Source: an uncultured Gemmiger sp.
GTDB taxonomy: Bacteria; Bacillota; Clostridia; Oscillospirales; Ruminococcaceae
DNA: 42,257 nucleotides
Direction of reading: 5' to 3'
NCBI GenBank assembly: GCA_944388245.1
Contig: CALXIA010000016.1
Span: 1-42,257, forward strand
The notes under the pieces are model-generated. The model worked only from the letters and a program-made list of their open reading frames with translations, made no database searches and was not told where the DNA came from. This document shows positions 9,094-12,717 of the stretch, one piece after another; the first letter of the stretch is position 1; every line of letters begins with the position of its first letter. The translations under genes were made by a program, and so were the position numbers.

Positions 9094-10983
9094 ATGAAAT
9101 CCATCCTGCGGGAGATCCGGGACACCGTGCAGAAATACGCCGGGATCATGGCCGAGGTGTCCGGTGTGGATGTGGAGGTCACCGACGCCACCCTGTTCCG
9201 GGTGGCCGGCACCGGACTGTTTGCCGCCGGGGTGGGGCAGGACATGTCCCAGGAGGGCTATACCTACCGCCTGCTGCTGGACGGCCAGCCCATCTTCGTC
9301 ATGGGGCAGCTGCACCGCCTGCGGCAGGAAAACACCGGCTACGCGGTGGTGGCCGCCTTCACCCGCACCCGGGAGATGCACCGCAGCCTGTCCCGGATGA
9401 TCGCCACCGTGGGCAGCGGTACGCTGGTGGGCTCCAGCGCCCACACCGAACAGCTGCGCAAAGAGATCGCCAAGATCGCCCGCAGCCCCTCCACCGTGCT
9501 GATCCTGGGGGAGAGCGCCACCGGCCTGGTGGTGGCCCCCGGCTTTATCGACACCCACAGCCACAGCGACCTGCGGATCCTGGAGGAGCCGGAGGTGCAG
9601 CCCAAGGTCATGCAGGGCATCACCACCGAGATCCTGGGCCAGGACGGCATCTCCATGGCGCCGCTGCCGGTGGAGTACATCAGCCCCTGGCGCAAGAACC
9701 TGGCCGGCCTGGACGGCGACAGCGACAACATCAACTGGGAGTTCAAGAACACCGCGGGCTATCTGGCCATGATCGACGCGGTCAAGCCCGGTTTGAACGA
9801 GTGCTACCTGGTGCCCCACGTCAACATCCGCATGGAGGCCATGGGCCTGGAGAACCGCCAGCCCAACGAGGAAGAGCTGGAGAAGATGCGCCAGATCACC
9901 CGCCGCGAGATGGAGGCCGGCGCGATCGGCCTGTCCACCAGCCTGATCTACATGCCCTGCGCCTACTCCGAGAGCAAGGAGATCATCGAGATGTGCAAGG
10001 TGGTGGCCGAGTACGACGGCATCTTCGTGATCCACCAGCGTAGCGAGGCCGACACCATCCTGGACAGCATGGAGGAGGTCATCCGCATCGGCCGGGAGTC
10101 CGGCGTCAAGATCCACTACTCCCACTTCAAGGTCTGCGGCAAAAAGAACTGGGACAAGATCGACAAGGTCGTCGAACTGCTGGAAAAGGCCGAGGCCGAG
10201 GGCATCCGGGTCAGCTTTGACCAGTATCCCTACGTGGCCGGCAGCACCATGCTGGGTGTCATCCTGCCGCCCTGGGTGCACGACGGCGGCACCAACAAGG
10301 TGATCGAGCGGCTGCACGACCCCGAGCTGCGCAAAAAGATGGTCTACGACATCGAGCACGGCATCCCCGGCTGGGACAACTTTGTGGAGTTCGCCGGGCT
10401 GGACGGCATCTTTGTCACCAGCGTCAAGACCCAGAAGAACCAGGACGCGGTGGGCCTGAGCCTGACCCAGCTGGGCCAGCTGCGAGGCAAGGACCCCTAC
10501 GAGGCCACCTTCGATCTGCTGATGGAGGAAGAGAACGCGGTGGGCATGGTGGACTTCTACGGCACCGAGGAGCATGTGCAGCTCTTCATGAAGCGGCCGG
10601 AGATGAACGCCTGCACCGACGGCCTGCTGGGCGGCAAACCCCATCCCCGCGTCTACGGCGCCTTCCCGCGCATCCTGGGCAAGTACGTCCGGGAGGACAA
10701 GGCCCTCACCCTGGAAGAGGCCGTTTACAAGATGACCAAGAAACCCGCCACCACCTTCAACATGGAAGGCCGCGGCGAGATCAAGGTGGGCAACTACGCC
10801 GACATCACCATCTTTAACCCGGACACCGTCATCGACAAGGGCACCTTCACCGACCCGGTGCAGTTCCCCGAGGGCATCGAGTACGTGCTCGTCAACGGCG
10901 GCGTCACCGTGGCCGGCGGCAAGCACACCGGCCATCGCAGCGGCGTGGTCCTTCGCCAGAAGGACAAAAAGGTGGTCAAATAA
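9094..10983 (+). CDS. Chimera: sigma-54 activator N-terminus fused to N-acyl-D-amino-acid deacylase lacking its N-terminus
   Basis: 629 aa in one open frame. Residues 1 to about 70 (KYAGIMAEVSGVDVEVTD, RVAGTG) resemble the sensor domain of clostridial sigma-54-dependent regulators. Residues about 111-141 (LVGSSAHTEQLRKEIAKIAR, then STVLILGES) are the beginning of the AAA+ domain, and Walker A should continue GESGTGKE. Instead, at residues 142-145 (ATGL, bases 9517-9528) the protein becomes a D-aminoacylase, LVVAPGFIDTHSHSDL, and runs to its normal end with HQRSEAD, HYSHFKVCG and ACTDG. The aminoacylase lacks its usual N-terminal strand domain of roughly 55 residues; the activator lacks almost all of its AAA+ domain and its helix-turn-helix. 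ATG follows AGGGGG. The family's cysteine-rich sensor motif is also absent. A real deletion or an assembly join are both possible. Confidence 0.8.
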   Translation: MKSILREIRDTVQKYAGIMAEVSGVDVEVTDATLFRVAGTGLFAAGVGQDMSQEGYTYRLLLDGQPIFVMGQLHRLRQENTGYAVVAAFTRTREMHRSLSRMIATVGSGTLVGSSAHTEQLRKEIAKIARSPSTVLILGESATGLVVAPGFIDTHSHSDLRILEEPEVQPKVMQGITTEILGQDGISMAPLPVEYISPWRKNLAGLDGDSDNINWEFKNTAGYLAMIDAVKPGLNECYLVPHVNIRMEAMGLENRQPNEEELEKMRQITRREMEAGAIGLSTSLIYMPCAYSESKEIIEMCKVVAEYDGIFVIHQRSEADTILDSMEEVIRIGRESGVKIHYSHFKVCGKKNWDKIDKVVELLEKAEAEGIRVSFDQYPYVAGSTMLGVILPPWVHDGGTNKVIERLHDPELRKKMVYDIEHGIPGWDNFVEFAGLDGIFVTSVKTQKNQDAVGLSLTQLGQLRGKDPYEATFDLLMEEENAVGMVDFYGTEEHVQLFMKRPEMNACTDGLLGGKPHPRVYGAFPRILGKYVREDKALTLEEAVYKMTKKPATTFNMEGRGEIKVGNYADITIFNPDTVIDKGTFTDPVQFPEGIEYVLVNGGVTVAGGKHTGHRSGVVLRQKDKKVVK

Positions 10984-11050: not shown

Positions 11051-11089
11051 GGGATGGCGCTGTGTTCGACCAACCGGAAGGGGAGAGGG

Positions 11090-11120
11090 GTGGGAGAGGA
11101 CCATCAGGGTCCTTTCCCAC
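11090..11120. repeat. Hairpin between the two repeat copies
   Basis: Arms 11090-11102 and 11108-11120 pair over 13 positions with one G-U wobble and a 5-base loop. There is no T-run after it on either strand, so a simple terminator is unlikely. Confidence 0.6.
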
Positions 11121-11133
11121 TTACAATCAAATC

Positions 11134-11313: not shown

Positions 11314-12717
11314 ATGGAACTGGCGCAACAGCAGGCGCAAAAACAGGTCCTGAGCCAGAGCCTGCGCCGGTCGCTGGAGGTGCTGCAGCTGCCCCAGACC
11401 GAACTGGAGGGCTATCTGCAGGAGGCGGTGCTCTCCAACCCGCTGCTGGAGATGGAACTGCCCCAGGACGCCCGCCTGCCCGACCCGGAACAGGAACCCG
11501 CCCGCGCCATGGCCGAGCGGGAGAGCGACACCTGGGAGTCCAGCGACAGCGAGAGCGCCGCAGTCTGGGACCTGCCCGCCGCCTGGGAGGGCAGCGCGGG
11601 GGAGGACTTCGCCGCCCGGCTGGCCGATCCCCGCGCCCAGGGCGAAAATCTCACCGACGCGCTGGCGGAACAGCTGCTGCACATGCCCCGCCTCACTGAC
11701 GGGATGCGCCGGCTCTGCGTCTATCTGATCGAATGTCTCAATGAGAACGGCTTTCTGGAATTTGACCTGGCCGACCTGGCCCGGGAACAGGGGGTGCCGC
11801 TCTTTGACATGGAGCAGGCCCTGTATATCGTGCAGGACCTGCAGCCCGCCGGGGTGGGGGCCCGCTCCCTGACCGAGTGCCTGGTGCTGCAGCTGGCCCG
11901 CACCGATCACTTTAATCCCCACACCCTGCGTCTGGTCCAGCCGGACGGGCTGGAACGGCTGGCCAAAGGGGATGTGGGGACCATTGCCCGGCTGCTGGAT
12001 TGCAGCCAGGCCGACGCCCGGCAGGCCGCGGCGGCGGTGCGGGCGCTGAATCCCCGCCCGGCCCAGGGCTACGGCACCGGCGGCGCGCTGGCCTGCCAGA
12101 TCCCGGAGGCGGTGTTTCGGCTGGAGGACGGCCGGGTGCGGATCGAGCTCAACGCCCGTCTGGCCCGGCGCCTGGCGCTGGACGAGCGGAACTGCGCCCT
12201 GCTGCAGACCGCCGGTTCCGAGCAGGACCGACGGTATCTGCGCGAGAAAAAGGCCGAGGCCCAGCAGCTGATCCGGGCGGTACAGGAGCGGGAGAACACC
12301 ATGGTGCGGCTGCTGCGCACCCTGGCCGACAGCCAGCCGGGCTATTTTCTGCGCCGGGAACCGCTGCAGCCCATGACCCTGACCCAGCTGGCCGAGCGGC
12401 TGGGCCTGAGCCTGTCCACCGTGAGCCGGGCGGTGCAGGGCAAATGCATCCAGTTTGAGGGGCGCAGCATCCCGCTGCGCCGGTTCTTCACCGCCGCCAT
12501 CACCGCGGCGGACGGGGCGGCGGTCTCCAGCGAGAACGTGCGCCGGCACATCGCCCGGTTCATCCAGGCCGAGGACCCGGAAAAGCCCTTGAGCGACGAG
12601 GCGCTGCGGGCCGCGCTGGCGGCGGTGCAGCTGCCGGTCTCCCGCCGGACGGTGGCCAAATACCGGGAGGAAATGGGCATCCCCGCCTCCTCCGCCCGCC
12701 GCCGGGCCGCCCGGTAA
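11314..12717 (+). CDS. rpoN: RNA polymerase sigma-54 factor RpoN
   Basis: 467 aa, complete. Region I: glutamine- and leucine-rich activator-binding start (QQQAQKQVLSQSLRRSLEVL, with LSNPLLEME). An acidic region II follows, and then the core-binding domain. The helix-turn-helix LAERLGLSLSTVSRAV lies around residues 360-375, followed by YIQ-type KCIQFEG. The RpoN box SRRTVAKYREEMGIP is near the C-terminus and recognises the -24 element. The ATG follows GAGAGGAGG. RpoN needs an AAA+ activator to melt promoters; the gene directly upstream carries only a fragment of one. Nothing in the sequence looks decayed in rpoN itself. Confidence 0.97.
   Translation: MELAQQQAQKQVLSQSLRRSLEVLQLPQTELEGYLQEAVLSNPLLEMELPQDARLPDPEQEPARAMAERESDTWESSDSESAAVWDLPAAWEGSAGEDFAARLADPRAQGENLTDALAEQLLHMPRLTDGMRRLCVYLIECLNENGFLEFDLADLAREQGVPLFDMEQALYIVQDLQPAGVGARSLTECLVLQLARTDHFNPHTLRLVQPDGLERLAKGDVGTIARLLDCSQADARQAAAAVRALNPRPAQGYGTGGALACQIPEAVFRLEDGRVRIELNARLARRLALDERNCALLQTAGSEQDRRYLREKKAEAQQLIRAVQERENTMVRLLRTLADSQPGYFLRREPLQPMTLTQLAERLGLSLSTVSRAVQGKCIQFEGRSIPLRRFFTAAITAADGAAVSSENVRRHIARFIQAEDPEKPLSDEALRAALAAVQLPVSRRTVAKYREEMGIPASSARRRAAR

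Follow-up and report, generated by a model that had tools for sequence, protein, structure and literature searches.

How did a single open reading frame (ORF) come to begin as a sigma-54 activator and end as an N-acyl-D-amino-acid deacylase, and does it encode a working protein? The ORF lies in a stretch of 42,257 nucleotides (the window) that makes up all of contig C16 of an uncultured Gemmiger genome (G000; 1.97 Mb, 64 contigs, 75.3% complete). We compared it with three genomes of the same genus: G001 (Gemmiger sp. An120, locus L029), G002 (uncultured Gemmiger MAG BRZ_NC bin37, locus L030) and G003.

The chimeric ORF is composed of three pieces

The preliminary description reported a switch from activator to deacylase within one ORF, and we confirmed this switch at residues 141–142 (window 9516–9525), with sigma-54-activator sequence up to residue 141 and N-acyl-D-amino-acid deacylase sequence from residue 142. 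Comparison with the relatives divided the ORF into three pieces: activator residues 1–57, activator residues from about 215 to 297, and aminoacylase from about residue 51, as numbered on the 537-aa GTG-start ORF of G002. The features are as follows.

9094–10983, plus strand: uninterrupted chimeric ORF of 629 aa; its start codon is that of the activator
9094–9264, plus strand: activator remnant 1, residues 1–57, the start of a weakly GAF-like N-terminal part; collinear with G001 and G002
9265–9270, plus strand: junction 1, with 471 bp (157 codons) absent relative to G001 and G002; TACCG common to both parent sites
9271–9515, plus strand: activator remnant 2, about residues 217–297, ending in the first AAA+ residues (Walker A GES)
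9516–9525, plus strand: junction 2, with 5,255 bp absent relative to G001 and 5,243 bp relative to G002
9517–10983, plus strand: UacY-like N-acyl-D-amino-acid deacylase without about 47–50 N-terminal residues; 97% protein identity to G001 and G002
11314–12717, plus strand: rpoN (sigma-54), intact, TIGR02395 above cut-off; also the next downstream gene in G001 and G002

NCBIfam profiles placed residues from about 94 to 148 on sigma-54 activators, at the start of the AAA+ domain, and the amidohydrolase model PRK09061 covered residues 142–389, below its curated cut-off. In Pfam, the enzyme part matched Amidohydro_3 (106 bits) and Amidohydro_1, and residues 1–141 matched zero domains. Pfam searches of the fused protein found neither PF00158, the AAA+ sigma-54 interaction domain (at E 0.001), nor a C-terminal Fis-type helix-turn-helix, in agreement with the earlier statement that the product lacks ATPase and DNA-binding domains. 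A dispersed repeat of ~50 bp lies at window 11073–11129; it has more than 10 copies in G000 and is also present in G001 and G002.

The parent genes belong to one operon in relatives

In both G001 and G002, a single contig carries on one strand a sigma-54 activator, a YgeX-like ammonia-lyase, a YgeY-like hydrolase, a Na+/solute symporter, a UacY-like aminoacylase and rpoN. The diaminopropionate ammonia-lyase YgeX and the YgeY-family hydrolase of these genomes score above cut-off (TIGR03528 and PRK13004, respectively), and the C-terminal 488 residues of the chimeric ORF are 97% identical to their aminoacylases. Their activators are full length (582 aa). The intact G001 activator matches PF00158 (Sigma54_activat) at 240 bits, beginning at residue 268; its matches to GAF_2 at residues 44–119 and to HTH_8 (a weak 20.6 bits, just under the cut-off of 22) fall below the Pfam cut-offs. 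Relatives with both parent genes complete, which the preliminary description had suggested seeking, thus exist, with one contig each and three genes between the two. Its idea that the genes were joined by deletion at short homology is supported by their shared order and strand, with the correction that three further genes separate them. Its alternative of two distant reads joined in assembly sits poorly with relatives in which these pieces are neighbours and correctly ordered.

The set of activator, YgeX, YgeY, transporter and aminoacylase is complete in G001 and G002 and represented by remnants alone in the window; in G003, the sequences corresponding to window flanks 9055 and 11223 are directly joined and the operon is wholly absent. 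Across the four Gemmiger genomes, the operon is therefore full in two, partial in one and empty in one. The order from activator to aminoacylase is repeated in many further Clostridia loci, mostly with RidA behind. We also observed that several genomes have rpoN adjoining the operon or what is left of it (window 11314–12717, L072, L150 and L074, on the opposite strand in L074). Activators of the same operon in L050, L053 and L151 lack the part matching G001 residues from about 162 to 238 with no stop, a natural shortening of the sensor.

Two junctions separate the ORF from the intact operon

Alignment of the window to G001 by blastn gave three collinear blocks at the gene, covering the window up to 9280, 9265–9533, and from 9516 onwards. 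At junction 1, inside the activator, residues from about 59 to 215 (157 residues) of the 582-aa G001 protein are gone with the frame kept. At junction 2, the activator breaks off in Walker A and the aminoacylase takes over at about its codon 51; the rest of the activator, YgeX, YgeY, the symporter and the aminoacylase N-terminus are lost. Two deletions are thus present where the preliminary description had proposed one, having overlooked the junction at 9265–9270.

The parent sites of junction 1 in G001 have TACCG in common. Those of junction 2 align over 13–21 bp with mismatches and a longest exact match of 5 bp, or 2 bp at the breakpoint in best agreement with the window sequence, as read from G001 parents, from which the homology of the strain's own parents may differ. 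The earlier suggestion of a clean join through GCCACCGGC (9517–9525) was therefore too strong, since the G001 homology is imperfect and no exact match exceeds 5 bp. When 200,000 site pairs were drawn at random from the region, exact matches of at least 5 bp occurred in 0.8% and overlaps of at least 18 in 0.3%. Homology at the junctions thus exceeds that of random site pairs, favouring a homology-guided event, whether natural or in the library.

Elsewhere, the window aligns collinearly with G001 contig C9 (11281–59380), and junctions 1 and 2 are the only breaks at which aligned blocks overlap in the window. The remaining breaks have unaligned bases between the blocks, and a near-abrupt one (26571/26577) lies in an intergenic repeat tract. 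We observed no overlapping break in eight further pairs of G000 and G001 stretches (78,474 aligned bases), one of which (L183/L184) is probably not orthologous; in these pairs, G000 had two gaps (28 and 49 bp), and several larger breaks also occurred, all without overlapping ends. Hence, junctions of this type are not habitual for the assembly in the sampled part.

Relocation of the missing DNA within G000 was rejected, as a 6-kb query returned only the remnants and paralogue-level matches. A YgeX protein search of G000 gave a single weak match (28% identity); YgeY and the symporter were sought at the DNA level. Absence of these genes elsewhere in G000 is not firm, because the assembly is only 75% complete.

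The enzyme part is conserved but lacks its N-terminus

Residues H155, H157, H314, H344 and D509, which we take to be the metal ligands of the aminoacylase, are invariant in 28 aligned sequences including that of the window. The window enzyme is changed at two near-invariant glycines, G243V (Gly in 44 of 45 sequences) and G283S (Gly in all 45). Two changes at invariant columns are not exceptional, as five of 31 comparison sequences have more. Window-side substitutions in the enzyme are mostly synonymous (61 versus 16–17), indicating that decay of the enzyme, if any, is recent; together with the two invariant-column changes, they give no support to strong relaxation of selection. Nearly all of this divergence probably reflects time before the deletions, and says little about the fused form.

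The N-terminus is incomplete: the ORFs of nearly all undisrupted relatives start about 45–50 or more residues upstream of window residue 142. The product had been described as a sensor covalently attached to an almost complete amidohydrolase; in fact, the sensor is short of 157 residues and the enzyme of about 47–50. A structure prediction had also been proposed, and AlphaFold2 modelled the barrel part of the 629-aa ORF with high confidence (overall pLDDT 76.2, pTM 0.77), although models of this type say nothing on stability and so are no test of it. Residues 31–108 had pLDDT below 50, a weak observation, since the alignment contained, besides the query, aminoacylases only and no activator rows.

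As a separate observation, the G001 aminoacylase (L020, 13168 region) has an in-frame TGA at the site of a Cys found in 40 of 45 relatives. Selenocysteine was rejected, since across the four Gemmiger genomes no tRNA-Sec attained the gathering score (44.8 bits at best, versus 47), and the TGA is probably a nonsense mutation or a sequence error.

The fusion is seen in one of the genomes searched, and other deletions enter the same gene

Sensor similarity was present in the aminoacylase ORF in none of 79 loci, four of which (L060, L070, L072 and L077) end at a contig edge and hence are not judgeable; we therefore rejected an established fusion family. A survey of 396 genomes of the family, G000 included, scored up to three first-look candidates per genome; 61 genomes had a match, and the activator–enzyme join appeared in G000 alone. 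Several survey rows starting at residues 67–140 were interpreted as the N-terminus of the enzyme itself aligning loosely, as checked for G171 only. Our literature search returned no paper combining a sigma-54 activator, an aminoacylase and gene fusion.

Other deletions run into the aminoacylase gene. L073 (Candidatus Paralachnospira sangeri) and L074 (uncultured Merdimonas), which are 99.7% identical over 2,590 bp, have YgeY(1–194) joined out of frame to aminoacylase(243–537) at the same bases. This junction sits at about 8001–8016 in L073 and about 1130–1145 in L074; L074 also has a TGA at the Cys preceding the conserved Asp of CTDG. In L149 (G375, same family), SsnA residues 2–82, YgfK(1–186) and aminoacylase(227–535) lie in a row, with the aminoacylase join out of frame. 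These three remnants of urate-cluster genes (L149 3028–4720, minus strand; G375:C9) look as if one cluster had suffered two deletions, like the window operon. Only the window's junction, one of three, enters the aminoacylase gene in frame, as expected by chance, in a count that comprises three events only.

When broken genes were counted automatically across the 79 loci, the aminoacylase was flagged in 6/45 cases away from contig edges (5/45, as L059 is intact by alignment), YgeX in 1/37, YgeY in 2/42 and the symporter in 0/27; single stops or frameshifts in draft genomes may be errors. The activator was flagged in 3/28 (two shorter proteins with no stop and one distant AAA+ match only) and RidA in 4/27, which were short N-terminal alignments rather than disruptions. 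The aminoacylase is split over two frames in L087 (after about residue 58) and in L076 (at about residue 355).

The window locus would be one of several in gut bacteria where a ygeX-ygeY-uacY type operon, whose pathway is linked to urate breakdown, has been independently hit by deletion. This suggests that the capacity is readily lost in gut bacteria, a lead rather than a result, because a search seeded on the enzyme sees only those deletions that leave part of the aminoacylase.

Origin of the chimeric ORF

Judging from sequence comparison, the ORF probably records two genuine deletions in a dispensable operon for nitrogen catabolism and is most likely a recent remnant that no longer performs its former function. 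The ancestor would have carried a sigma-54 activator, YgeX, YgeY, a sodium symporter and a UacY-like aminoacylase upstream of rpoN. Comparison with relatives shows that one deletion took 471 bp out of the sensor part of the activator, and that the other, of ~5.25 kb, began at the activator Walker A and ended near aminoacylase codon 51; both probably arose through slippage or a template switch at short stretches of similarity. The reading frame survived, an outcome that chance would give in ~1 of 9 cases, and the lineage appears to be losing the operon. The predicted product would have a gutted sensor and an enzyme missing its N-terminal strands, with neither an ATPase nor a DNA-binding domain; the partner enzymes and transporter are gone. 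Since YgeX, YgeY, the symporter and the enzyme N-terminus are missing, the old pathway step has very probably been lost in the G000 strain. An in-frame ORF made from two genes in a draft genome thus need not represent a new protein architecture, and may reflect ordinary operon decay.

The operon might instead be intact in the genome, with chimeric molecules that skip between short homologies built into the contig. We consider this artefact unlikely, though it deserves real weight: the assembly is fragmented and a quarter incomplete, template-switch chimeras also use short homologies, and two skips 250 bp apart within one gene are unusual for a genome. However, the missing 5.25 kb is not on another contig, the control bases contain no further overlapping break, and two MAGs of different records (L073 and L074) share a comparable deletion in this operon, albeit from raw data that are possibly not independent. 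Usual assembler k-mers are far above 5 bp, so exact matches of at most 5 bp between the G001 parent sites make a shortcut in the assembly graph unlikely. What argues against a remnant is that the ORF is fully open, with both junctions in frame and the metal-site residues kept. The same features, together with the mostly synonymous divergence and the confidently modelled barrel, would be expected if the truncated aminoacylase or the whole fusion were expressed from the activator start with a selected function. We regard such a working protein as highly improbable: the loss of 157 sensor and about 50 enzyme residues makes a functional sensor-enzyme unlikely; residues 1–141 match no Pfam domain and, on weak evidence, residues 31–108 are modelled poorly; none of the other loci and genomes searched carried the fusion; and the divergence probably predates the deletions almost entirely. 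Still more doubtful is the specific proposal that the activator fragment replaces the N-terminal strands of the enzyme, forming a regulatory stub on a deacylase of the urate-pathway type whose frame selection kept through two successive deletions. On present sequence evidence, a function of the fusion is neither required nor excluded, and the scar of two deletions remains our preferred explanation.

Comparison with known systems

Residues 1–57 and 58–141 align with the intact G001/G002 activator and so resemble sigma-54 activators (bacterial enhancer-binding proteins), for which the closest NCBIfam model is PrdR, below its cut-off. Unlike those proteins, the window product lacks a complete sensor, the ATPase beyond the start of Walker A, and the helix-turn-helix. 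For the enzyme, the structures available for comparison are the D-aminoacylases 1m7j and 1rjp and the N-acyl-D-glutamate deacylase 3gip/3giq (PDB). Residues 8–296 and 364–530 of the intact G002 enzyme match 1m7j (E 5.1e-86). By contrast, the window copy starts inside the region matched from residue 8, having lost the N-terminal strands that precede the first metal histidines.

UacY belongs to the reductive uric-acid pathway of Clostridioides difficile, in which this D-aminoacylase-type enzyme is reported to take the place of YgeW and to act on the 2-ureido group, and in which YgeY together with YgeX yields pyruvate (PMC12507026). The aminoacylase locus L067 is very probably the C. difficile uacY locus. 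Models for SsnA and YgfK gave nothing above cut-off in the four Gemmiger genomes (G000–G003), so we do not claim urate breakdown by Gemmiger, in which the enzyme may have a substrate other than urate. Like UacY, the Gemmiger enzyme belongs to an aminoacylase family adjoining ygeX and ygeY, and the window enzyme is 67% identical to that of C. difficile (L067); unlike UacY, the window copy is without about 47–50 N-terminal residues, is preceded in frame by activator fragments, and has lost ygeX, ygeY and the symporter.
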